Shown one piece after another: positions 6,699 to 16,258 of a stretch of 16,258 nucleotides of DNA. Origin of the DNA: Paracoccaceae bacterium (lineage in GTDB: Bacteria > Pseudomonadota > Alphaproteobacteria > Rhodobacterales > Rhodobacteraceae); contig SLKB01000298.1 in NCBI GenBank assembly GCA_007134805.1, positions 1 through 16,258 of the forward strand. The letters are read 5' to 3'. Positions within the stretch are counted from its first letter, which is position 1; each line of letters opens with the position of its first letter. Under the pieces are notes generated by a model, which was not told the origin of the DNA, did not search any database, and worked only from the letters and a program-made list of their open reading frames with translations. The position numbers and the translations under genes are program-made.

Positions 6699-8075
6699 AT
6701 GAGCCAGAACCCGCCCCAGCTTCGCCCCGACCTTGCCCCCCGCGCGCGCCTGCCCGACAGCCCGCGCCCCGGCCAGCCGACCATCGGCATGGTCTCGCTC
6801 GGCTGCCCCAAGGCGCTGGTGGACAGCGAGCGCATCCTCACCCGCCTGCGCGCCGAAGGCTACGGCATCAGCCCCGATTACGCCGGCGCCGATGCAGTGA
6901 TCGTCAACACCTGCGGGTTTCTCGACAGCGCGAAGGCGGAATCGCTCGACGCGATCGGCGAAGCGCTTGCCGCGAACGGCCGCGTCATCGTCACCGGCTG
7001 CCTCGGCGCCGAGCCTGATTACATCACGGGCGCGCACCCGAAGGTGCTCGCCGTCACGGGCCCGCATCAATACGAGCAAGTGCTCGACGCAGTGCATGCA
7101 GCAGTCCCGCCCCAGCCCGACCCGTTCCTCGACCTGATGCCCGCGCAGAGCGTGCAACTGACCCCGCGTCATTACAGTTATCTCAAGATTTCAGAAGGTT
7201 GCAACCACAAGTGCAAGTTCTGCATCATCCCCGACATGCGCGGCCGCCTTGTCTCGCGCCCCGCCCATGCCGTGATGCGCGAGGCCGAGCGGCTGGTTGG
7301 CGCGGGCGTGCGCGAGCTTTTGGTGATCAGCCAGGACAGCTCTGCCTACGGGGTTGATCTGAAGCATGCGCGCGACAAGGGCCACCGCGCCCATATCACC
7401 GATCTCGCGCGCGATCTGGGCAGCCTCGGCGCCTGGGTGCGGCTGCACTATATCTACCCCTACCCGCATGTGCGCGCGCTGATCCCGCTGATGGCCGAGG
7501 GGCTGGTGCTGCCTTATCTCGACATCCCCTTCCAGCATTCCCATCCCGACACACTGCGGCGCATGGCGCGGCCTGCGGCAGGCGAAAAGACACTGGAGCG
7601 CATCGCGGAATGGCGCGCCATCTGCCCCGAGATCACGCTGCGCTCGACCTTCATCGTCGGCTATCCCGGCGAGACCGAGGCCGAGTTCGAGCATCTGCTG
7701 GACTGGCTGGACGCGGCACAGCTCGACCGGGTGGGCTGCTTTCAGTATGAAAACGTGGCCGGCGCGCGGTCGAACGCGCTGCCTGATCATGTGCCCCCCG
7801 AGATCAAGGCAGACCGCTTCGCGCGGTTCATGGAAAAGGCGCAAGCCATTTCCGAGGCGAAGCTTGCCGCGAAACTGGGCCAGCGCCTGCAGGTGATCGT
7901 CGACGAGATCGACGCAGACGGCATCGCCACCTGCCGCACCAGGGGCGACGCGCCCGAGATCGATGGCAATCTCTTCATCGACGCGGGCACCGAGGCGCTC
8001 AGCCCCGGCGATATCGTCACTGTCGAGGTCGATGAGGCCAGCGACTACGACCTCTGGGGGCAGCTCGCGCCGTGA
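6699..8075 (+). CDS. rimO: Ribosomal protein S12 methylthiotransferase RimO
   Basis: A radical-SAM enzyme that adds a methylthio group to a conserved aspartate of ribosomal protein S12. Domains in order: N-terminal UPF0004 domain with Cys36 ([12 protein letters not shown]), Cys72 (VNTCGFL) and Cys101 (TGCLGAE), ligands of the auxiliary iron-sulfur cluster; the radical-SAM domain with CNHKCKFC (Cys168, Cys172, Cys175); and a C-terminal TRAM domain from about residue 385 that binds RNA or the partner protein. [12 protein letters not shown] separates RimO from the tRNA-modifying MiaB. The length of 458 residues is normal, including a 25-residue proline-rich N-terminal extension. No ribosome site precedes ATG 6699; TTATAT lies 8 bases before it, so a leaderless mRNA is possible. 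Confidence 0.97.
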
Positions 8076-8174
8076 CACGCGCGCGGCTCGCATCTTTCCT
8101 CTGTCACCTGGCCATGCTAAGGGCTGCGCGGCTTGGGCGAACCCTGCCCTGACAGTCTTTCTGGAGAACATCAC

Positions 8175-8597
8175 ATGCCCATCGAGCGGACGCTTTCGAT
8201 CATCAAACCCGACGCCACCACCCGCAACCTGACCGGCAAGATCAACGCCAAGTTCGAGGAAGCGGGCCTGCGCATCATCGCGCAGAAGCGCATCCACCTG
8301 ACCCGCGCGCAGGCCGGCAAGTTCTACGAGGTCCATGCCGAACGCCCCTTCTATGATGAGCTGTGCGAGTTCATGGCATCAGCCCCTGTCGTCGTGCAGG
8401 TGCTCGAAGGCGAGGGTGCGATCGGCAAGAACCGCGAAGTCATGGGCGCGACCAACCCCGCCGATGCCGCCCCCGGAACGATCCGCGCGGAATTCGCGCA
8501 ATCTGTGGGCGAGAATTCGGTGCATGGCTCGGACGCGCCGGAAACCGCCGCGCTCGAGATCGCCTATTTCTTTTCGGGCCTCGAACTGGTCGGCTGA
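8175..8597 (+). CDS. ndk: Nucleoside diphosphate kinase
   Basis: A 140-residue cytoplasmic enzyme that transfers the gamma phosphate of ATP to nucleoside diphosphates by a ping-pong mechanism. The family signature NSVHGSD (residues 114-120) contains the phosphorylated His117. The N-terminus [11 protein letters not shown] carries Lys11. Length and whole sequence fit bacterial Ndk. ATG 8175 has GGAG at 8163-8166, eight bases upstream, and a 99-bp leader region separates it from rimO. Upstream in-frame codons from 8133 have no family character. It is followed by a T-rich hairpin and the structured repeat. Confidence 0.98.
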
Positions 8598-8608
8598 CGC
8601 GGCGCGGC

Positions 8609-8638
8609 GCCCGCCCTTCAAGACGCCGGGGCTTTTTT
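8609..8638 (+). terminator. Probable weak rho-independent terminator of ndk
   Basis: GCCC (8609-8612) can pair with GGGC (8629-8632), extended by one pair past a bulged base, directly followed by six Ts (8633-8638). The stem is short and the loop large, so efficiency is doubtful. Position just after ndk and the T-tract are the main support. Confidence 0.4.
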
Positions 8639-8664
8639 GTTGCAAGGCGCGCGCGCCTTGCAAC
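8639..8664. repeat. 26-bp perfect palindrome downstream of ndk
   Basis: The left half GTTGCAAGGCGCG (8639-8651) is followed without a spacer by its exact reverse complement CGCGCCTTGCAAC (8652-8664). It abuts the ndk T-tract, and its right half overlaps the beginning of the structured repeat (GCCTTGC at 8655). It may be an extra hairpin of the ndk 3' end, part of a REP-like element, or a protein site. Perfect symmetry over 26 bases is unlikely by chance even in GC-rich DNA. Confidence 0.8.
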
Positions 8665-8734
8665 CGGGGGGAGCGGCCACTCGGGGTGCTGAAGCACGCC
8701 TCGCGGCCGCTGCCCCTGCGACCGCAGGGGCGGG
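8654..8734 (+). repeat. Structured intergenic repeat, copy 1
   Basis: This copy aligns with the reverse complement of 15874-15962. From 5' to 3' it shows: GCCTTGC, a G-rich linker, an outer stem AGCGGCC/GGCCGCT (8672-8678 with 8705-8711), a conserved TC/TC internal loop, an inner hairpin GGGGTGCT/AGCACGCC (8683-8690 with 8693-8700) with one G-G mismatch, and a separate hairpin GCCCCTGCG/CGCAGGGGC (8712-8720 with 8723-8731). The second copy differs mainly in loops or by compensatory changes in stems. It lies 3' of ndk in the same direction and 75 bp before the acyltransferase gene. It could be a REP-like mobile palindrome, an RNA-processing or stability element, or a sRNA/3'-UTR module. No protein reading is convincing. 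Confidence 0.75.
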
Positions 8735-8774
8735 CGCAGCCCCTTTGCCCGCGCGCGGAAGGCACCAAGCGGGA

Positions 8775-8803
8775 TTTACCATGCCGCGCATTGATGCCAG
8801 ATT
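8775..8803 (+). promoter_or_regulatory. Possible promoter of the acyltransferase gene
   Basis: TTTACC (8775-8780) and CAGATT (8798-8803) are 17 bases apart. The -35 box agrees with TTGACA at four positions; the -10 box is weak. The start codon lies only six bases after the -10 box, which would give a leaderless transcript. No ribosome site is seen in its place. Confidence 0.35.
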
Positions 8804-8809
8804 GCGCCC

Positions 8810-10228
8810 ATGTTCCAGCCGATTGAGCTTCCTCTCTGGTCCTTGATTCTGGTGCTGGCCTTCGCGGCCGTCACTTTTGCGTCGCATTTCCTGTTCCCCT
8901 CGGTGCGCTGGTTCTTCCGCCGCCGGATGGAGCGCGCGGTCGCACGGCTCAATGAGCGGCTCGAGCGCCCGATCGAGCCGTTCCGCATCATGCGCCGGCA
9001 GGATCAGGTCACACGCCTGATCTATGACGCGCAGGTGATGGAGGCCGTGCGCGCCTATGCCGATGACGAGGGCGTGCCGCCCAATGTGGCCTTCGAGAAG
9101 GCCCGCTCCTACGCGCGCGAGATCGTGCCGGGATTTTCCACCGCCACCTATTTCGGCTTTGCCATCAAGCTTGCCCAGCGCATCAGCCAGGGGCTTTATC
9201 ATGTCCGCCTCGGCGGGGCGGATCAGCCGGCACTTGCGCAGATCGACCGGCGCGCGGCCGTGGTCTTCGTGATGAACCACCGCTCGAACATGGATTACGT
9301 GCTGATCACCTGGCTTGCGTCGAAACACTCGGCGCTGAGCTACGCGGTCGGCGAATGGGCGCGGGTCTGGCCCCTGAAGGCGCTGATTCGCGCGATGGGC
9401 GCCTATTTCATCCGCCGGCGCTATTCCAACCCGCTCTACCGCGCGATCCTCGCGCGCTATGTGCAGATGTCGGTCGAACAGGGCACCACGCAGGCGATCT
9501 TCCCCGAAGGCGGGCTCTCGCTCAATGGCGCGGTCGGCAATGCGCGGATCGGGCTTTTGCATTACATCGTGCGCGGCTTCAACCCGAATGCGGGGCAGGA
9601 TGTGGTCTTCGTGCCCGTGGCGTTGAACTATGACCGCGTGCTCGAGGACCGGGTGCTGATCACTGCCGGCATGCAGGGCATCCGCCGTTTTCCGATCCGC
9701 GCAAAGGTGGTGCTGGGCTTCACGCTGCGCATCCTGTGGCAGAAGCTGCGCAAGCGCTTCACGCCGTTTGGCGTGGCCGCTGTCTGCTACGGCGCGCCGT
9801 TGTCGCTGCGCGCCTACTTCAAGGACCATCCCGGCGTCGGCACCGAGGCGCTGGCCGCAGAGCTCATGGAGCGCATCCGCGCCGCGGTCCCGATCCTGCC
9901 GCTGCCGCTTGCCGCGGCGGCGCTGGTGCGACAGGAGGGGCTGTGCACCCGCGATCAGCTCGCCGAAGAGGCAGCCCGGCTTTGCGACGCGCTCGAGGCC
10001 CGCCGCGCCTGGCGGCATTTCGACGGCACCCCGCGCGAGGCTGTCGAGGCCGGGCTTGCCGGCCTTGCGCTGCGCGGCATCGTCACCCTCAAGGGCGACC
10101 GGGTCCAGATCAGCCCCGGCGAAGAAGGGGTTCTGGGCTATTACGCGGCCTCTGTCCTGCAGCGGCTGAGCGCACCGCAGGGCGTCGCGCCCCAAGACCA
10201 TATGCAGCTTGACAAACCGGGCGCCTGA
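8810..10228 (+). CDS. PlsB-type glycerol-3-phosphate acyltransferase-like protein
   Basis: A 472-residue membrane-associated acyltransferase, expected to acylate glycerol-3-phosphate (or a related acceptor) in the first step of phospholipid synthesis. An N-terminal membrane helix (about residues 10-29) is followed by the acyltransferase blocks: NHRSNMDY (His157, Asp162 of HX4D), GAYFIRRR (197-204), FPEGGLS (231-237) and VPVALNYD (268-275). The GAYFIRR and NHRSNMD forms are PlsB-like rather than PlsC-like. It is much shorter than the roughly 800-residue E. coli PlsB, so the large N-terminal domain of the latter is absent. About 130 C-terminal residues after position 340 look like a helical extension. 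There is no ribosome site at ATG 8810. ccr follows after 151 bp with its own leader. Confidence 0.88.
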   Translation: MFQPIELPLWSLILVLAFAAVTFASHFLFPSVRWFFRRRMERAVARLNERLERPIEPFRIMRRQDQVTRLIYDAQVMEAVRAYADDEGVPPNVAFEKARSYAREIVPGFSTATYFGFAIKLAQRISQGLYHVRLGGADQPALAQIDRRAAVVFVMNHRSNMDYVLITWLASKHSALSYAVGEWARVWPLKALIRAMGAYFIRRRYSNPLYRAILARYVQMSVEQGTTQAIFPEGGLSLNGAVGNARIGLLHYIVRGFNPNAGQDVVFVPVALNYDRVLEDRVLITAGMQGIRRFPIRAKVVLGFTLRILWQKLRKRFTPFGVAAVCYGAPLSLRAYFKDHPGVGTEALAAELMERIRAAVPILPLPLAAAALVRQEGLCTRDQLAEEAARLCDALEARRAWRHFDGTPREAVEAGLAGLALRGIVTLKGDRVQISPGEEGVLGYYAASVLQRLSAPQGVAPQDHMQLDKPGA

Positions 10229-10269
10229 ATCCCGCGAGACATATTATTACCAAAAACATCAAAACAGGG

Positions 10270-10298
10270 TTGCATTGTTGCGCATCGCCCCGTATCCA
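10270..10298 (+). promoter_or_regulatory. Possible ccr promoter/control region
   Basis: Unlike its surroundings, the stretch 10240-10275 before ccr is AT-rich. TTGCAT (10270-10275), 17 bases, then TATCCA (10293-10298) could be a weak promoter. TTGC occurs twice eight bases apart (10270 and 10278). In relatives, ccr is controlled by RamB/ScfR-type regulators that bind TTGC/GCAA half-sites, so the pair may be a binding site; this link is inference. A GC palindrome AGCCCC-G-GGGGCT (10335-10347) lies farther down in the leader. Confidence 0.33.
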
Positions 10299-10379
10299 TG
10301 CTGCGAGCGCTACATGTCCTTCTGCGGTGCAGAAAGCCCCGGGGGCTGTGGCCTGAAATCATTTGGAATGGAGGCCCTG

Positions 10380-11672
10380 ATGGCTCTGGACGTGCAGACC
10401 GGCATTGCCGCTTACGATGCCCCTGAAAAAGACCTCTACGAGATCGGCGAGATGCCCCCGCTCGGCTATGTCCCCAAGCAGATGTATGCCTGGGCCATCC
10501 GCCGCGAACGCCATGGCGAGCCCGATCAGGCGATGCTGGTCGAGGTGGTCGATACCCCCACCCCCGACAGCAACGAAGTGCTGGTCCTGGTGATGGCCGC
10601 GGGCGTGAACTATAACGGGATCTGGGCCGGCCTCGGGCAGCCGATCTCGCCTTTCGATGTCCACAAGGCACCTTTCCATATCGCAGGCTCCGACGCCTCG
10701 GGGATCGTCTGGGCCGTGGGCGACAAGGTCAAGCGCTGGAAAGTGGGCGATGAGGTCGTGATCCATTGCAACCAGGACGATGGCGATGACGAACATTGCA
10801 ATGGCGGCGATCCGATGTACTCGCCCAGCCAGCGGATCTGGGGCTATGAGACGCCCGACGGATCGTTCGCGCAATTCACCAATGTGCAGGCCCAGCAGCT
10901 GATGCCGCGCCCCAAGCATCTGACCTGGGAAGAATCGGCGTGCTACACGCTGACCCTGGCTACGGCCTACCGGATGCTCTTCGGCCATGAGCCGCATGAC
11001 CTGAAACCGGGGCAGAACGTGCTGGTCTGGGGCGCCTCGGGGGGCCTTGGGTCCTATGCGATCCAGCTGGCCAACACCGCCGGCGCGAATGCCATCGGCG
11101 TGATCTCGGACGAGAGCAAGCGGCAATTCGTCCTCGATCAGGGCGCCAAGGGGGTGATCAACCGCAAGGAGTTCAAGTGCTGGGGCCAGCTGCCCAAGGT
11201 CAATACACCGGAATACAATGACTGGCTCAAGGAAGCCCGCAAGTTCGGCAAGGCGATCTGGGACATCACCGGCAAGGGCGTGAATGTCGACATGGTGTTC
11301 GAGCATCCGGGCGAGGCGACCTTCCCGGTCTCGGCGCTGGTCGTCAAGAAAGGCGGCATGGTGGTGATCTGCGCGGGCACGTCGGGGTTCAACTGCACCT
11401 TCGATGTCCGCTACATGTGGATGCACCAGAAGCGCCTGCAAGGCTCGCATTTCGCGCATCTCAAGCAGGCCTCGGCCGCCAACCAGCTGATGATCGAGCG
11501 CCGCCTCGACCCCTGCATGTCCGAGGTCTTCCCCTGGGACGAGATCCCGCAGGCGCATCTGAAGATGTACCGCAACGAGCACAAGCCCGGTAACATGGCC
11601 GTGCTGGTGCAAGCCCCCCGCCCCGGCCTGCGCACCTTCGAGGACGCGCTCGAGGCCGGCACCAGGGGCTGA
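10380..11672 (+). CDS. ccr: Crotonyl-CoA carboxylase/reductase
   Basis: Converts crotonyl-CoA, NADPH and CO2 into ethylmalonyl-CoA, the defining step of the ethylmalonyl-CoA pathway used to assimilate acetyl-CoA where isocitrate lyase is absent. The 430 residues equal the length of the characterised Rhodobacter enzyme. It is a medium-chain dehydrogenase/reductase: GroES-like N-terminal domain, then a Rossmann domain with VLVWGASGGLGSYAIQL (214-230). Asn77 in GVNYNG probably corresponds to the CO2-binding asparagine of studied homologues. ATG 10380 has GGAGG five bases upstream; the frame upstream of it (to 10209) overlaps the acyltransferase end and has no Ccr similarity. The usual partner genes ecm, mcd and mch are not in the window. 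A strong terminator follows. Confidence 0.97.
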   Translation: MALDVQTGIAAYDAPEKDLYEIGEMPPLGYVPKQMYAWAIRRERHGEPDQAMLVEVVDTPTPDSNEVLVLVMAAGVNYNGIWAGLGQPISPFDVHKAPFHIAGSDASGIVWAVGDKVKRWKVGDEVVIHCNQDDGDDEHCNGGDPMYSPSQRIWGYETPDGSFAQFTNVQAQQLMPRPKHLTWEESACYTLTLATAYRMLFGHEPHDLKPGQNVLVWGASGGLGSYAIQLANTAGANAIGVISDESKRQFVLDQGAKGVINRKEFKCWGQLPKVNTPEYNDWLKEARKFGKAIWDITGKGVNVDMVFEHPGEATFPVSALVVKKGGMVVICAGTSGFNCTFDVRYMWMHQKRLQGSHFAHLKQASAANQLMIERRLDPCMSEVFPWDEIPQAHLKMYRNEHKPGNMAVLVQAPRPGLRTFEDALEAGTRG

Positions 11673-11717
11673 GCCCGTCGGCACCGTTGCGTCGAAGGCG
11701 CGCATCCGCGAAAAAAA

Positions 11718-11748
11718 CCGTCCGGCACATTGCCGGGCGGTTTTTTTT
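11718..11748 (+). terminator. Strong rho-independent terminator after ccr
   Basis: CCGTCCGGC (11718-11726) pairs with GCCGGGCGG (11732-11740) as a 9-bp stem with one G-T pair and a five-base loop, followed by eight Ts (11741-11748). Seven As precede the stem (11711-11717), so the same hairpin can also terminate minus-strand transcription. Confidence 0.93.
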
Positions 11749-11853
11749 CGAACAGGCTGTTAGGATTTCTGGCGCCCTGGCACCCCACATGTGGTAAGAA
11801 TGAGAAAGTCGGGCCGTATATGTATCGCGCGCGCCCTGTGGAGAGTGTGTTCT

Positions 11854-12036
11854 GTGTCACATGCCTGGTTGATCGAAACCCTGACCGAATTGCGTTCACA
11901 TGCCGAACAATCAGGGCTTCCGATGCTGGCGGATCATCTCGAGACGGCCATCCACCTCGCCCATGCAGAGATCGCCTCACAGGAAGATGTCTACCGCGAG
12001 AACCGCGACGAGCGACGCCGCTTTCCCAGCAAGTGA
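11854..12036 (+). CDS. Conserved small alphaproteobacterial protein, unknown function
   Basis: A 60-residue soluble, mostly helical protein beginning MSHAWLIETLTELRSHAEQS (GTG read as Met). The sequence resembles a short conserved protein family I know from Rhodobacteraceae, but no function is known. GTG at 11854 is preceded by GGAGAG (11840-11845) with an 8-base gap, a much better site than the ATG at 11791, whose extra 21 residues are basic and cysteine-containing and look untranslated. The last ten residues are highly charged (ENRDERRRFPSK). It lies after the ccr terminator and 55 bp before the helicase, so it has its own promoter. No cysteine or metal motif is seen in the 60-residue form. 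Confidence 0.72.
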   Translation: MSHAWLIETLTELRSHAEQSGLPMLADHLETAIHLAHAEIASQEDVYRENRDERRRFPSK

Positions 12037-12079
12037 CACCCCGCGCGACAGGGCCCTTTCTCGCCCCGCCCGGATCGAC

Positions 12080-12085
12080 TAGACA
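12080..12085 (+). promoter_or_regulatory. Possible -10 box of the helicase gene (leaderless start)
   Basis: TAGACA lies six bases before ATG 12092, 17 bases after a poor -35-like TTTCTC (12057-12062). The start codon has no ribosome site, so transcription beginning at or next to the ATG would explain the layout. The hexamer matches consensus at only three or four positions. Confidence 0.3.
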
Positions 12086-12091
12086 GGCCCG

Positions 12092-13624
12092 ATGACCGTG
12101 CCCGCGCTTCAGTTCTCCGACGATCAGGCCCAGGCCTGGGACCGGGTCGCGGCCATCCTCACCGCGGCCGGCATCGATCTGGACGCCGGCCATTGCCTGC
12201 CCGCGCAGGAGGGCGCGGCCCAGACGCTCGCGATCATGGGCAAGGCGGGATCGGGCAAGACGATGCTGCTGGCCGCGCTCACCCGCCGCCTGATCGATGC
12301 AGGGGTCGAGATCGTCTCGGGCGATTATGAGGCCCGCCGCCGGCGCGAGCGGCGCAGCCTCGCTGTGCTCGCCCCCACCAACAAGGCCGCGAGCGTCCTG
12401 CGCGGGCGCGGCGTGCCGGCCACGACCATCCACCGCATCCTCTACACGCCCGTCTATGACCCCGAATACGAGAAGATCGCCGAATGGCTCGCCGGCAACC
12501 GCCCCCGCCCCAGTGTCGAGGGCTTGAGCGACACGGCCCTTGACCGTGCCCAGGCCTTCTACGCGCAGGTCAAATCCATCCCCGGGGCGCTGGCCGCGGC
12601 GGGGCTGCGCGGGTCGGATTTCATCACCGGCTGGAAGCGGCGCGACGAGCCGCTCGATATCGGCTTTGTCGATGAAAGCTCAATGCTGGATGCCCGCCAA
12701 CTCGACGATCTGCGCGAGCTGTTCTCGACGCTGATCCTCTTTGGCGACCCCGCGCAGCTTGCCCCCGTCGGCCAGTCGGGCGAGATGGTGTTCGACACGC
12801 TGCCCGCGCCCGCGCGGCTCGAACTGTCGCGCATTCACCGCCAGGCCGAGGGCAACCCGATCCTCGATCTCGCCCATGCGCTCGCCGAGCCCGATCTGGA
12901 GTTCGAGGATTTCGAGCAGCGCGTCGCCGCAGCCGCCGCGCGCGACCCGCGCGTGCAGATGGCCGAACGGGTGGACAGCGACCTCATGGCGCGCTCGCCG
13001 GTGCTCGTATGGCGCAATGTGACGCGGCTGCGGCTGATCAACGCCTTCCGGCGCGCGCATGACGCGCCCGAGGCCGCGCTCAGCCCCGGCGAGCCCTTGA
13101 TCTGCGACGGGCTGGAGCTGCCGCTCAAGCACCGCAAGCGCCGCATCGACCTCGAGGCGCGCGGCCTGATCAAGGGCGCGCAGGTCGTCTATCTCGGCCC
13201 CGGCCGCAAGCCCGGCTTCTCGCGGCTGCACATCTTCGGCGCCGAAGAGCCGCAGATCTCGGTCGCCTCGATCATCAAGATCGAGACCGATCCCGATGAA
13301 GAGCCCGTCATCCCCTATGCCGCAACCATGGGCGCGGCTTTCGTGCATGGCGCCGCCTGCACCATCCACAAGGCGCAGGGCTCGCAATGGCCCGATGTGC
13401 AGGTCTTCGCCCCCGATCTCTACGCCGCCGCGCGCGCCGGCCGGTCCGAGGCCGGGCTGCCGCTGTGGAAACGGCTCGCCTATGTCGCCATCACCCGGGC
13501 CGAGCATCGCCTGCACTGGGTGATCCGCAACCGCCTCGCCCGCCCGCGCGCGCCGCTCTCCACCGAGGATCTGAGCGCCGAGACCGCCCCCGCCCGGCTG
13601 ACGATGCAAGAGGACGAGTTGTAA
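12092..13624 (+). CDS. RecD/Dda-like superfamily 1B DNA helicase
   Basis: A 510-residue stand-alone helicase with SF1 motifs in order: Walker A GKAGSGKT (50-57), Ia APTNKAA (94-100), TIHR (112-115), Walker B FVDESSM (192-198), motif III LFGDPAQLAPVG (216-227), motif V TIHKAQGSQWPDV (424-436) and motif VI VAITRAEHR (465-473). It should translocate 5' to 3' on single-stranded DNA using ATP. It lacks the N-terminal and RecBC-contact regions of true RecD and is shorter than RecD2, closer in size to phage T4 Dda. A role in replication-fork or repair processing is inferred. An acidic stretch and a variable insertion (about 250-360) lie between motifs III and V. No nuclease domain is visible, and no recB/recC or addAB gene is nearby. 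Confidence 0.88.
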   Translation: MTVPALQFSDDQAQAWDRVAAILTAAGIDLDAGHCLPAQEGAAQTLAIMGKAGSGKTMLLAALTRRLIDAGVEIVSGDYEARRRRERRSLAVLAPTNKAASVLRGRGVPATTIHRILYTPVYDPEYEKIAEWLAGNRPRPSVEGLSDTALDRAQAFYAQVKSIPGALAAAGLRGSDFITGWKRRDEPLDIGFVDESSMLDARQLDDLRELFSTLILFGDPAQLAPVGQSGEMVFDTLPAPARLELSRIHRQAEGNPILDLAHALAEPDLEFEDFEQRVAAAAARDPRVQMAERVDSDLMARSPVLVWRNVTRLRLINAFRRAHDAPEAALSPGEPLICDGLELPLKHRKRRIDLEARGLIKGAQVVYLGPGRKPGFSRLHIFGAEEPQISVASIIKIETDPDEEPVIPYAATMGAAFVHGAACTIHKAQGSQWPDVQVFAPDLYAAARAGRSEAGLPLWKRLAYVAITRAEHRLHWVIRNRLARPRAPLSTEDLSAETAPARLTMQEDEL

Positions 13625-13632
13625 GCGCGCCC

Positions 13633-13662
13633 TTGCACCCGCGCCCGGCCAGTGCCAGATGT
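13633..13662 (+). promoter_or_regulatory. Possible promoter of the aldehyde dehydrogenase gene
   Basis: TTGCAC (13633-13638), an 18-base spacer and AGATGT (13657-13662) precede a proper ribosome site. Both boxes are weak matches; the position inside a 64-bp gap between two same-strand genes is the main support. Confidence 0.3.
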
Positions 13663-13688
13663 AGCCCAACGACAAGGGAGTGCGCGCA

Positions 13689-15134
13689 ATGCTGGACAAA
13701 CGCCAATTCTATATCGACGGAACCTGGACCGACCCGCTCGCGGGCCAGGATCTCGAGGTGATCGACCCCTCGACCGAAGACGCCTTCGCGGTGATCTCGC
13801 TCGGGGCCGAGGCCGATACCGACCTTGCCGTCGCCGCGGCCAGCGCCGCCCTGCCCGGCTGGATGTATACCGACCCGGCCGACCGGCTGGCCCTCGTCAC
13901 GCGCATCCTCGAATGCTACGGCGCGCGCGCCGAGGATATGGCGAAAGCGATCAGCCAGGAAATGGGCGCGCCGATCGACCTTGCGACCAGTTCGCAGGCT
14001 GCCGCCGGCTACTCCCACATCAAGAATTTCATCAAGGCGTTCGAGCATGTCCGCTTCATCGAACCCCTGGGCGATCACGCCCCCGATGACCGCATCCTCC
14101 GCGAGGCCGTGGGCGTCTGCGCGCTCATCACGCCCTGGAACTGGCCGATGAACCAGGTCACGCTCAAGGTGATCCCGGCGCTGCTCGCGGGCTGCACGAT
14201 GGTGCTCAAACCTTCCGAAATCGCGCCGGTCTCGTCGATGATCTTCGCCGAGATCCTGCATGAGGCGGGCACGCCGCCGGGCGTGTTCAACCTCGTGAAC
14301 GGGGATGGCGCGGGTGTGGGCACGCAACTCTCGCGCCACCCCGAGGTCGACATGGTCAGCTTTACCGGCTCCACCCGCGCGGGAATCGCGATTTCCAAGA
14401 ACGCGGCCGAAAGCCTCAAGCGCGTGCATCTCGAACTCGGCGGCAAGGGCGCCAACATCATCTTCGCCGATGCCGACGACAAGGCCGTCCGGCGCGGCGC
14501 GATGCATTGCTTCCAGAACACCGGCCAGTCCTGCAATGCACCGACGCGGATGCTCGTGCAGCGCGAGATCTACGACCAGTCGGTCGACGCCGCGGTGGCT
14601 GCGGCCGAGGCCACGCAAGTGGGACTCGCCTCCGAGAAGGGGCGTCATATCGGCCCGCTCGTGTCGGCCGCGCAGTTCGAGAAGGTGCAAGGCCTTATCG
14701 AGACCGGCATCAACGAGGGCGCGCGCCTCGCCGCCGGCGGGCTGGGCCGGCCCGAAGGCTTCAATCGCGGCTATTTCGTCCGCCCCACGGTCTTCGCCGA
14801 TGTGCATAACGACATGACCATCGCGCGCGAGGAAATCTTCGGCCCCGTGCTCTCGATCATCCCCTTCGAGACCGAGGACGAGGCCATCCGCATCGCCAAT
14901 GACACCCCCTACGGGCTCACCAACTACGTCCAGAGCCAGGACGGCGCACGGCGCAACCGGCTCGCGCGCAAGCTGCGCTCGGGCATGGTCGAGATGAACG
15001 GCAAGTCGCGCGGCGCGGGCTCGCCCTTCGGCGGCATGAAGCAGTCCGGCAACGGGCGCGAAGGCGGGGTCTGGGGGATCGAGGATTTCCTCGAGGTCAA
15101 ATCCGTCTCCGGCTGGGATGGCAGCGCCGCCTGA
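13689..15134 (+). CDS. NAD(P)-dependent aldehyde dehydrogenase
   Basis: A 481-residue member of the ALDH superfamily that oxidises an aldehyde to the acid. Catalytic elements are complete: PWNWP with Asn151, KPSE with Lys174, SFTGST (224-229) for cofactor binding, LELGGKGAN with Glu249 as general base, and GQSCNAPTR with the nucleophile Cys282. EEIFGPVLS and the C-terminal SPFGGMKQSGNGREGG are also typical. The substrate cannot be assigned from sequence. ATG 13689 has AAGGGAG (13674-13680) eight bases upstream; the GTG at 13680 is part of that ribosome site. It follows the helicase by 64 bp and precedes the HIT gene by 29 bp. Confidence 0.95.
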   Translation: MLDKRQFYIDGTWTDPLAGQDLEVIDPSTEDAFAVISLGAEADTDLAVAAASAALPGWMYTDPADRLALVTRILECYGARAEDMAKAISQEMGAPIDLATSSQAAAGYSHIKNFIKAFEHVRFIEPLGDHAPDDRILREAVGVCALITPWNWPMNQVTLKVIPALLAGCTMVLKPSEIAPVSSMIFAEILHEAGTPPGVFNLVNGDGAGVGTQLSRHPEVDMVSFTGSTRAGIAISKNAAESLKRVHLELGGKGANIIFADADDKAVRRGAMHCFQNTGQSCNAPTRMLVQREIYDQSVDAAVAAAEATQVGLASEKGRHIGPLVSAAQFEKVQGLIETGINEGARLAAGGLGRPEGFNRGYFVRPTVFADVHNDMTIAREEIFGPVLSIIPFETEDEAIRIANDTPYGLTNYVQSQDGARRNRLARKLRSGMVEMNGKSRGAGSPFGGMKQSGNGREGGVWGIEDFLEVKSVSGWDGSAA

Positions 15135-15163
15135 CACTGGCCCATAAGCGAAGGACGCGGCCC

Positions 15164-15550
15164 ATGAGCAGCTACAGCTACGACGACCAGAATGTCTTCG
15201 CCAGGATCCTGCGCGGCGAGATCCCCTGCAAGCGCGTGCTCGAGACCGAGCACACGCTCGCCTTCAGCGACATCGCCCCCAAGGCCCCGCATCATGTGCT
15301 GGTGATCCCGAAAGGCCCCTACGTCTGCTACGACCATTTCGCGCAAGCCGCCTCCGAGCCCGAGATCGTGGATTTCACCCGCACGCTCGGCCGGCTGTGC
15401 ACCGAGCTTGGGGTGGCCCCGGGCGATGGCGGGGCAGGCTACCGGCTGATCGCGAATGCGGGGTCCGACGGGGTGCAGGAGGTCCCGCACCTGCATGTCC
15501 ATCTTCTGGCGGGGCGCAATATCGGCCCGATGGTCATGATGCGCCCTTGA
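15164..15550 (+). CDS. HIT-family nucleotide-binding protein (HinT-like)
   Basis: A 128-residue histidine-triad protein. The motif HLHVHLL (His109, His111, His113) with the preceding SDGVQEVP is the HinT/PKCI pattern; the middle His111 is the expected nucleophile in hydrolysis of adenosine phosphoramidates. DIAPKAPHHVLVIPK in the first half is equally typical. Length is slightly above the usual 110-120 residues. GAAGGA (15149-15154) is nine bases before ATG 15164, and a CATAAG hexamer (15143-15148) may be a -10 box. The stop codon overlaps the -35 box of the following tRNA promoter. Confidence 0.94.
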   Translation: MSSYSYDDQNVFARILRGEIPCKRVLETEHTLAFSDIAPKAPHHVLVIPKGPYVCYDHFAQAASEPEIVDFTRTLGRLCTELGVAPGDGGAGYRLIANAGSDGVQEVPHLHVHLLAGRNIGPMVMMRP

Positions 15551-15574
15551 CGAGACTCGGCCACGTGGCATAAG
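15547..15574 (+). promoter_or_regulatory. Promoter of tRNA-Cys
   Basis: TTGACG (15547-15552, five of six matches) and CATAAG (15569-15574, four of six) are 16 bases apart, placing the transcript start around 15581, six bases before the tRNA. The -35 box contains the HIT gene's TGA stop. Confidence 0.62.
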
Positions 15575-15586
15575 CACGCGCTCAGA

Positions 15587-15660
15587 GGCGAGTTGGCGGA
15601 GTGGTTACGCAGCGGATTGCAAATCCGTGTACACCGGTTCGATTCCGGTACTCGCCTCCA
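15587..15660 (+). tRNA. tRNA-Cys, anticodon GCA
   Basis: A full cloverleaf is visible: acceptor GGCGAGT (15587-15593) with ACTCGCC (15650-15656), a 3-bp D stem GCG/CGC (15596-15598 with 15608-15610), the anticodon stem GCGGA/TCCGT around loop TTGCAAA with anticodon GCA at 15619-15621, and the T arm ACCGG-TTCGATT-CCGGT. The discriminator base is U73 (15657), the main identity element of cysteine tRNAs, and CCA (15658-15660) is encoded in the gene. Confidence 0.98.
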
Positions 15661-15694
15661 GTTCTTCACCCCGTGACAAAGCCTGTCAGCTGCC

Positions 15695-15728
15695 GCGCCC
15701 TGCGCGGCCGCGCGGCGGGCGCTTTTTT
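15695..15728 (+). terminator. Probable terminator of tRNA-Cys
   Basis: GCGCCC (15695-15700) pairs with GGGCGC (15717-15722); a small internal loop leads to CGCG/CGCG (15703-15706 with 15711-15714) closed by GCCG. Six Ts follow directly (15723-15728). The T-tract is also the start of the first 29-bp repeat. Confidence 0.7.
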
Positions 15729-15750
15729 CACTGTGCGAAATCATTTTTCA
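15722..15750 (+). repeat. 29-bp AT-rich direct repeat, unit 1
   Basis: Matches unit 2 (15785-15813) at 25 of 29 positions. It begins CTTTTTTCAC and ends TTTTTCA. Inside is an imperfect dyad TTTCAC-TGT-GCGAAA (one broken pair). Its T-run doubles as the tail of the tRNA-Cys terminator. Confidence 0.75.
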
Positions 15751-15784
15751 GAATCCGCCGCTGTGCGCAGTGCTCCGTGGTGGC

Positions 15785-15813
15785 CTTTTTTCACTCTGTG
15801 AAATGCTTTTTCA
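15785..15813 (+). repeat. 29-bp AT-rich direct repeat, unit 2
   Basis: Second unit, starting exactly 63 bp after the first. Here the internal dyad is perfect: TTTCAC-TCT-GTGAAA (15788-15802). No good terminator stem precedes this copy, so its T-run is not explained by termination. Dyad plus phased spacing resembles a pair of repressor or regulator sites; which gene would be controlled is unclear. Confidence 0.75.
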
Positions 15814-15873
15814 TTTTCGCAGGCGCTGCAACCGGCCTGATGACAGGTCCGGTTCACTGGCGCTGCCACATGT

Positions 15874-15962
15874 CCCGCCCCTGCGCCACGCAGGGGCGAG
15901 CGCCCGCGAGGCGTGCCAGCGGCACCCCGAGCGGGCGCTTCCCACCGGCCGGGCGCAAGGCT
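15874..15962 (-). repeat. Structured intergenic repeat, copy 2
   Basis: Reverse-strand copy of the element at 8654-8734. Outer stem AGCGCCCGC/GCGGGCGCT (15899-15907 with 15931-15939), inner hairpin GGCGTGCC/GGCACCCC (15910-15917 with 15921-15928) with loop AGC, and separate hairpin GCCCCTGCG/CGCAGGGGC (15877-15885 with 15889-15897). Relative to copy 1, one outer-stem pair changes G-C to C-G and the inner hairpin closing pair changes T-A to C-G, both keeping pairing. It starts 12 bp after the stop of the minus-strand gene, in that gene's direction, like copy 1 behind ndk. Confidence 0.75.
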
Positions 15963-15973
15963 CGAAAAGCGTT

Positions 15974-16258
15974 CTAGATCAGCATGATCCGCGCCATGCC
16001 AGTCTCGGCGACATAGTTGCAGCGCACTTCGATCTGCGCGCCATCCCGGCTGACCCGCAGCATCACATCCTGCGCGGGCGCGCCCTCCGATGTCGTGACC
16101 GCGCGCGAGCCTGCAACCCCCATGACCTGCAAGCCCCGCTCGCGGCCCGCCGCGATACAGGCCTGCTCGGCGCCCTCGGACATGGTGCCCGTGGCGCCGA
16201 AATCGCCGAAAGTGTCGACTTCCTGCGAGGGCGCTGTCGGCGCGGGAGCGGGTGCGGG
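15974..16258 (-). CDS. Secreted or envelope hypothetical protein (5' truncated)
   Basis: The frame is open to the window end, so only the last 94 residues are seen. They begin with a proline/alanine-rich segment (PAPAPAPTAPSQE), a typical linker behind a signal peptide, then a compact domain: EQACIAAGRERGLQVMGV, a central strand region DVMLRVSRDGAQIEVRCNY and a hydrophobic end ARIMLI. Two cysteines (in EQACIAA and VRCNY) could form a disulfide, which fits an exported protein. I have seen this pattern in small uncharacterised Rhodobacteraceae exported proteins, but no function is known. An ATG at 16183 is internal to the frame and not a likely start. Confidence 0.7.
   Translation of the reverse strand, partial: PAPAPAPTAPSQEVDTFGDFGATGTMSEGAEQACIAAGRERGLQVMGVAGSRAVTTSEGAPAQDVMLRVSRDGAQIEVRCNYVAETGMARIMLI

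Follow-up and report, generated by a model that had tools for sequence, protein, structure and literature searches.

The REP and BIME elements of enterobacteria and pseudomonads are RAYT-linked, short, imperfect palindromes that lie outside genes and are dispersed in both orientations. RAYT-linked REPs carry a GTAG- or GGAG-type tetranucleotide 5' of the hairpin. The repeat described here resembles REP and BIME elements in its short imperfect palindromes, its dispersed extragenic position behind genes and its occurrence in both orientations, but it is a two-hairpin unit with a C-rich loop and no fixed tetranucleotide, and no RAYT was found in the element-rich genomes examined. It adds a dispersed palindrome family to bacteria for which we found none described, without the transposase to which the spread of REP elements is attributed.

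Several other systems come close in single respects. The GGGNATC repeats of Xanthomonas and Nostoc are tandem heptamers associated with G-quadruplexes, few between divergent genes and frequently no more than 50 bp from a stop codon (PMC4692102). They share with our element a four-run G-rich motif, dispersal, scarcity between divergent genes and proximity to stops, whereas the element carries its four runs at the tip of a conserved hairpin, in the apical loop. TMECO, which is described from E. coli and its relatives as an always intergenic, GC-rich repeat with an intrastrand triplex motif (PMC4666352), is similar by description: both are GC-rich, structured and intergenic, with no strand bias and variable sites. 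The Rhodobacterales motifs HRC-8-4 and uORFC-8-2 are likewise structured and restricted to the same order, and in HRC-8-4 a terminator-like stem bears a loop with conserved bases; they are, however, tied to particular genes (cco operons and cysS), which the element is not (PMC8632094). Bidirectional intrinsic terminators also have a hairpin between convergent genes and an A-containing leader on one side, but the element has a second hairpin without a T run, a C-rich loop and patchy, lineage-specific sites. No description of the element was found in open-licence literature on Rhodobacterales or alphaproteobacterial palindromic repeats, quadruplex REPs and structured RNAs; because the search covered open-licence papers, this absence is weak evidence of novelty.

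The window, the whole 16,258-nucleotide stretch of DNA that was analyzed, belongs to the assembly G000, a MAG of 2.68 Mb in 412 contigs rated 82.5% complete and 4.1% contaminated. The initial annotation had aligned two intergenic stretches (8654–8734 and 15874–15962), and their relationship was confirmed: both are members of a repeat family of ~80 bases. The double change in the outer stem (AGCGGCC/GGCCGCT versus AGCGCCC/GGGCGCT), the swap of the closing pair from T-A to C-G, and the TC/TC internal loop and G-G mismatch kept in both copies were all present as reported. The similarity held, but the exact limits did not, as the models placed copy 1 at 8665–8739 (+) and copy 2 at 15869–15946 (−). 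The previously noted 5' end of copy 1 overlaps a separate 24-nt perfect palindrome (8640–8663). The preceding stop codon is ~67 nt away from copy 1 and ~27 nt away from copy 2, against 56 and 12 bp before, because the earlier borders were wider.

Copy 1, matched by both covariance models described below (R1 and R2), starts with a G-rich leader, the family's purine leader, at 8665–8671 (+) according to position counts. Alignment and fold place its hairpin 1 (AGCGGCC...GGCCGCT, with the TC/TC loop and the G-G mismatch) at 8672–8711 (+) and its hairpin 2 (GCCCCTGC GACC GCAGGGGC, followed by GGGC) at 8712–8731 (+). On the minus strand, copy 2 has hairpin 1 (AGCGCCCGC...GCGGGCGCT) at 15899–15939 and hairpin 2 (GCCCCTGCG TGG CGCAGGGGC, 9 bp) at 15877–15897 on the same grounds. 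A hairpin with 9-bp stems in both copies and loops of AC versus TGG had been proposed here, which is correct for copy 2; copy 1 has an 8-bp stem and the loop GACC, because a ninth pair would leave a loop of 2 nt.

Upstream of copy 1 lies ndk, encoding nucleoside-diphosphate kinase (8175–8597, +; NCBIfam NF001908, above cut-off), followed by the position of the ndk intrinsic terminator (8607–8638, +), where a scan and the comparison with relatives revealed a weak stem and TTTTTT in G000. The 24-nt palindrome TTGCAAGGCGCGCGCGCCTTGCAA stands between this position and copy 1, and its 20-nt core occurred, among the collected loci, only in three that cover the same place. Copy 2 is preceded by a partial gene without an NCBIfam name (15974–16258, −; gene finder and NCBIfam), whose stop is the one ~27 nt away; a tRNA-Cys gene (15587–15657, +; Rfam RF00005) is convergent with it. 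A terminator pattern scan found no terminator-like site at either copy and three in all, against 4.9 expected in shuffles, and a sigma-70-like promoter search of window positions 7000–16258 found none. With Rfam 15 at gathering scores, the window matched tRNA only, and 19 element loci of relatives gave no match. We also considered a small RNA or riboswitch and rejected it: permissive Rfam scans returned eukaryotic miRNAs and others, far below gathering scores.

Using copy 1 as a blastn query, we found 10 places at E < 1e-3 in G000, copies 1 and 2 included. The covariance model R1, built from these ten copies, gave 30 matches at E ≤ 0.1 in the same assembly, including one overlapping pair on opposite strands. 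Copy 2 ranked best (87.8 bits) and copy 1 fourth. In the ten-copy alignment, 10 pairs changed on both sides and 93.6% of the cells paired, and each value was reached by 0 of 500 shuffles. A wider model, R2, was built from 55 copies. For gene context, 173 model matches were reduced by 17 duplicates to 156 unique cores, and the leader was readable in 152 of the unique copies (23 from G000 and 129 others). An exact-pattern search of IMG/VR for phage carriage had 0 matches, and a plasmid search yielded a single partial 31-nt match, in Paroceanicella. The element is a dispersed family beyond chance that appears in no catalogue searched.

The unit consists of two adjacent hairpins, and no terminal inverted repeats were seen by eye. 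Its order, 5' to 3', is purine leader, hairpin 1, hairpin 2 and often GGGC. Hairpin 1 comprises a 9-bp outer stem, typically AGCGCCCGC/GCGGGCGCT, the TC/TC internal loop, a GG/CC step and an apical stem, with the G-G mismatch present in many G000 copies. Hairpin 2 follows after 0 or 1 base and has a stem of ~8–9 bp whose sequence differs among copies. The predicted folds of copy 1 (−44.5 kcal/mol, z −3.85) and copy 2 (−51.8 kcal/mol, z −4.34) were both stable relative to shuffles. We discarded a pseudoknot that would pair the CCCGCCC loop with a GGGCGGG tail, as some orthologues do not keep this tail.

Relatives mostly carry, at the tip of hairpin 1, a C-rich loop of the CCCACCC(A/G)CCCGCCC type. 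Four C runs were present in this loop in 113 of 129 copies outside G000 and in 0 of 23 scorable G000 copies; the pattern with single-base spacers matched 103 of the 129, the spacers being variable and mostly A or G. The opposite strand of such a loop therefore carries a G-quadruplex motif, which might fold as a quadruplex. A comparable four-run pattern on either strand was found in 99 of 20,000 random 41-nt windows, which possibly contain some element sequence. The leader of the 23 G000 copies has G at 78–100% at positions −7 to −2, while the leaders of the 129 other copies hold more A and are A/G-rich and variable. The scored G000 copies thus combine the lack of a four-run C-rich loop with a G-run leader in place of an A-containing one, and the two changes may be linked. 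Since the quadruplex-capable loop is common in two genera and missing from the scored G000 copies, it offers a comparative test of the role of the loop.

Two further structural variants were seen. In the G097 copies L200, L204, L206–L210 and L212, the TC/TC loop has become fully paired GAG/CTC (GGG/CCC in L210), a change that looks like the rewriting of one arm from its partner. At L039 of G000, two inverted copies (1501–1580, + and 1624–1699, −) lie ~43 nt apart as a BIME-like doublet, and the relatives L196 and L071 have a single copy at the matching flank.

Besides the window's own genome, other Rhodobacterales hold the element, in its own genus and in a second one. Within its own genus, that of Natronohydrobacter thiooxidans, R2 at E ≤ 1e-3 matched 21 of 37 genomes, the richest carrying 45, 40, 27, 25, 25 and 23 copies; no copy was detected at this threshold in the other 16, ten of which are rated 99–100% complete. 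The family-wide sample had matches in 3 of 295 genomes (G000, G097 and G292). All five genomes of the second genus, that of G097, matched, with 5 to 42 copies each. In the other families of the class, none of the 24 genomes scanned matched R1 at E ≤ 0.01. The exact outer-stem pattern was present in at least 111 stretches of named genomes. Among the matches listed (80 titles), 70 belonged to Natronohydrobacter or other Rhodobacteraceae and 10 were actinobacterial; many of those 70 are MAGs, and their isolate names suggest an origin in soda-lake sediments. When R2 was run on 100 of the at least 111 pattern loci, 16 had no match at E ≤ 1e-3, namely the 10 actinobacterial ones and six others. The actinobacterial loci, all ten without an R2 match, were treated as chance palindromes.

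To describe the gene context, genes were called with a purpose-written codon-bias gene finder. Among the 156 unique copies, 76 lie between convergent genes, 35 are tandem sense, 27 tandem antisense and 4 divergent; one is apparently within a gene, and for 13 a neighbor is missing at the contig or locus end. The nearest stop codon is at a median of 15 nt (≤30 nt in 102 of 148 copies), and 28 of the 76 convergent copies leave ≤30 nt of the gap over. The ratio of tandem sense to antisense copies does not differ from even (p 0.37). The earlier placement of both copies 3' of a gene and in its direction is thus accurate for the window, but as a family rule it fails, since both orientations occur. 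Within the same loci, the 84 intergenic regions with the element were 37 tandem, 2 divergent and 45 convergent, compared with 174, 86 and 30 of the 290 element-free regions of ≥60 nt, a minimum applied to the element-free gaps alone. This same-loci comparison corrects the selection bias in part: many loci were picked via the element, so the convergent share is inflated. The near-absence of the element from divergent gaps is not accounted for by locus selection.

We located ndk in 33 of the 37 genus genomes, scanned 30 loci (one per genome) and inspected their gaps. The element stands behind ndk in one of the 30, G000, and was not seen in the 29 testable relatives. Most relatives have a GC-rich hairpin with a T run there, commonly CCCCGGA..TCCGGGG, and no element; the hairpin count of 27 of 30 comes from a crude scan with a few misplaced picks. 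In most relatives ndk is followed by the acyltransferase-like gene, which in G000 is PlsB-like, below the cut-off of that family. The T run is kept at 8633–8638 in G000, but the stem is weak, and we therefore stop short of calling this a fully functional terminator of its own. At the hinT/tRNA-Cys site, the model again matched G000 alone among 30 loci; 25 of the 29 relatives hold ≥650 nt behind hinT with the tRNA-Cys in place, and in G002, G011, G016 and G027 the locus is short or does not extend far enough for a judgment. Both window copies are apparently recent, lineage-specific sites.

Other sites are shared between genomes. After pairs with identical flanks had been collapsed, 46 site pairs (21 sites) with both flanks alike had the element in the same orientation and one pair in the opposite orientation, at flank identities of 67–98% plus one near-identical flank; with one flank alike, 19 pairs agreed in orientation and 21 did not. 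The G000 copy of the single discordant pair, and perhaps those at further shared sites, has G000's own loop type, which fits either a fresh insertion or homogenization within the genome. Between bchO (NCBIfam TIGR03056, above cut-off) and crtC (NF045922, just below cut-off), 7 of 30 genomes have a clear copy of the element, in one orientation in all seven; an eighth copy looks decayed and none was seen in the others. Three relatives whose next gene has the length of crtC have the two stops 5, 0 and 0 nt apart, so that there is no room for any hairpin, and in the other element-free genomes the next gene is different or was not found. G016, which has the most copies of all, is without the element at this site. 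We read this pattern as gain of the element followed by inheritance and loss, and the element would not be indispensable. The persistence of one site over 67–92% flank identity fits a selected function and inert passengers equally. We infer insertion and loss from presence and absence, because no mobilizing enzyme was found and no insertion with a target duplication was resolved.

The changes in the stems are strongly two-sided. When 90 and 81 distinct copies were aligned by fitting them to the model, a procedure that favors the structure, 294 and 281 cells carried both-sided changes, 3 and 4 carried one-sided changes that still pair, and 94.5% and 95.5% of the cells paired. For hairpin 2, the two alignments together gave 340 both-sided changes, 3 one-sided pairing changes and 57 unpaired cells. 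The 90 copies were found by the exact outer-stem pattern, so the constancy of the hairpin-1 outer stem and its absence of G-U are partly built in; for this reason, no argument rests on hairpin-1 constancy, and the pooled G-U test is unusable. The number of further standard pair types was a less clear measure, reached by 19 of 500 and 98 of 500 shuffles. A MAFFT alignment misaligned hairpin 2 and was left out. A fixed-position parse of hairpin 2 in 169 of the 173 matches, with duplicates kept, yielded 1114 Watson-Crick, 27 G-U and 38 mismatched pairs.

At orthologous sites, 33 comparisons of hairpin 2 yielded 34 double Watson-Crick changes, 3 double changes with G-U and 1 with a mismatch, against single changes of which 2 were to or from G-U and 9 involved a mismatch. 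Because all members of a site were set against a single reference, any change found in that reference alone is counted repeatedly (13 of the 34 doubles, in six of the 33 comparisons). Without one site of doubtful register (L115, 9 of the 34), 25 double Watson-Crick changes remained versus 9 single ones. Such copies, at the same site and in the same orientation in several species, are data for distinguishing selection acting via G-U from one-step template switching.

The Y1 domain (PF01797) at E ≤ 0.01 was found in 0 of 5 element-rich genomes (G031, G014, G016, G097 and G292), and G013 also had no match. Over the cut-off, it was present in two of the 37 genus genomes, G000 and G001. The strong match of G001, which has 25 copies, is an IS200-type transposase with no element at its locus. 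G000 contains a RAYT above the NCBIfam NF047646 cut-off at L023:1420–1905 (−), on a contig (L023, G000:C406 1–3336) where it is surrounded by several copies of an unrelated repeat (CTGTGGGAG..GCAGGCGCCGAAGGCGACGCAGCGA type) and by EPS/PEP-CTERM-like genes; this contig, itself a neat RAYT-REP unit, is probably a contaminant. R2 at E ≤ 1e-3 found no element in the Y1 loci L023 and L214–L217. A fixed GTAG/GGAG-type tetranucleotide 5' of the hairpin is absent, the leader being G-rich in G000 and A/G-rich and variable elsewhere.

The initial annotation had named a REP-like element as one candidate. Copy number, extragenic 3'-end placement, scarcity between divergent genes, both orientations and patchiness agree with this, and the element is a dispersed, short, imperfect, extragenic palindrome as REPs are; what is not supported is membership of the RAYT-linked class, because no RAYT was found in the element-rich genomes examined. 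With a probability of about 70%, we regard it as a new REP-like family without RAYT, made up of small dispersed palindromes that Rhodobacterales either tolerate or employ as a hairpin module at 3' ends.

A true REP of a RAYT system, with the transposase lost or missed, appears improbable. The element's dimensions, its position outside genes at their 3' ends, the mismatch retained in its imperfect hairpin and the purine leader next to that hairpin would all suit such an origin, as would the RAYT in the G000 assembly, but that RAYT sits on a contig that looks like contamination and has its own unrelated repeats and no element, the G001 protein is of the IS200 type, and the five element-rich genomes lack a Y1 match, including G031, which is rated 100% complete and has 23 copies. 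The same placement would also suit a bidirectional terminator or 3'-end module under selection that ends both convergent transcripts, an account that is possible but that we consider doubtful. One transcript would then end in two hairpins, and the opposite one in hairpin 1 followed by a T/C-rich run, the reversed purine leader. The position directly behind stops and between convergent genes, with little spare sequence in 28 of 76 convergent gaps, is compatible with this, as is the higher A content of leaders outside G000. Leaving G000 out, antisense leaders, which become a T run in the transcript, are richer in A (mean 3.08, n = 24) than sense leaders (2.41, n = 29; p 0.043) and than those of 62 convergent copies (p 0.005), both p values being uncorrected; this excess is a small sign of a terminator role, which G000 with its G-run leader does not share. 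Against such a module, no U run follows sense copies, the G run of G000 becomes a C run on the other strand where a T/C run is found elsewhere, and tandem copies are almost evenly oriented. Relatives also manage without the element at the same sites, with a hairpin and T run behind ndk and with bchO and crtC stops 5, 0 and 0 nt apart, and 16 of the 37 genus genomes have no copy at E ≤ 1e-3. For the termination or 3'-UTR module named in the initial annotation, this leaves the placement as compatible and the orientation and the element-free relatives as contrary. Its third candidate, a small RNA, received no support. A trans-acting family using the C-rich loop as a seed is very improbable: the four-run loop in 113 of 129 copies outside G000 and the stable predicted fold speak for it, but the loop is found in 0 of 23 G000 copies, both orientations occur behind genes with no clear bias, and neither a sigma-70-like promoter in window positions 7000–16258 nor an Rfam match was found.

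The suggestion that pairing-preserving changes indicate selection for a fold survives as one of two readings. Since more double than single changes are seen, a competing reading, template switching at DNA hairpins, has to be taken seriously. It is described for RNA stems as rewriting one arm from the other in a single step (PMC8794818). We consider it possible, though less likely than not, that the compensatory pattern is largely mutational, with template switching during replication producing matched stems without selection on each. The excess of both-sided over one-sided changes in hairpin 2 (340 versus 3) and of double Watson-Crick over single changes at orthologous sites (34 versus 11) is what this would leave behind, and so are the scarcity of G-U relative to 11 tRNAs (27 of 1141 versus 14 of 226, p 0.005) and the conversion of the TC/TC loop into paired GAG/CTC or AAG/CTT in some copies. 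The G-U deficit is, however, not significant against 27 ndk-terminator hairpins (10 of 239, p 0.12), 13 of the 34 doubles come from six copies compared with one reference, 57 cells are unpaired, and hardly any variation is seen in the C-rich loop or in the four opening pairs of hairpin 1, which correction by itself does not explain. Selection and template switching may both be active. A more elaborate scenario, speculative and in our judgment unlikely, would derive the family from an ancestral hairpin with a G-quadruplex tip on the G strand or an i-motif on the C strand, beside a freely rewritten second palindrome. This unit would act on DNA at gene ends, by halting polymerase or absorbing supercoils between convergent genes, would be spread by a non-RAYT enzyme and have its arms matched by template switching, and in the lineage of G000 a plain loop would have replaced the quadruplex loop in every copy. 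If so, the orthologous copies would be a natural record of palindrome rewriting.

The data establish the family, its structure, its gene context, its inheritance and its patchy distribution. For the REP-like family without RAYT that we favor, we propose the following course. Copies would arise in the space after stop codons, pointing either way and in many cases between convergent genes, and those between divergent genes would rarely be kept. New sites would appear in single lineages, while old sites are passed down in fixed orientation and would later be lost. From their placement, the hairpins may form a structural barrier on transcripts ending there, against read-through and exonuclease trimming, and their arms may be kept matched partly at the DNA level.

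The ndk gap of L243, L245 and L246 contains another repeat-like stretch, GGGGGC..GCCCCC..CTCACCCC..GAGGATATTT..GCAAGGATGAA, with a similar one in L247, which is perhaps another dispersed family of this group.
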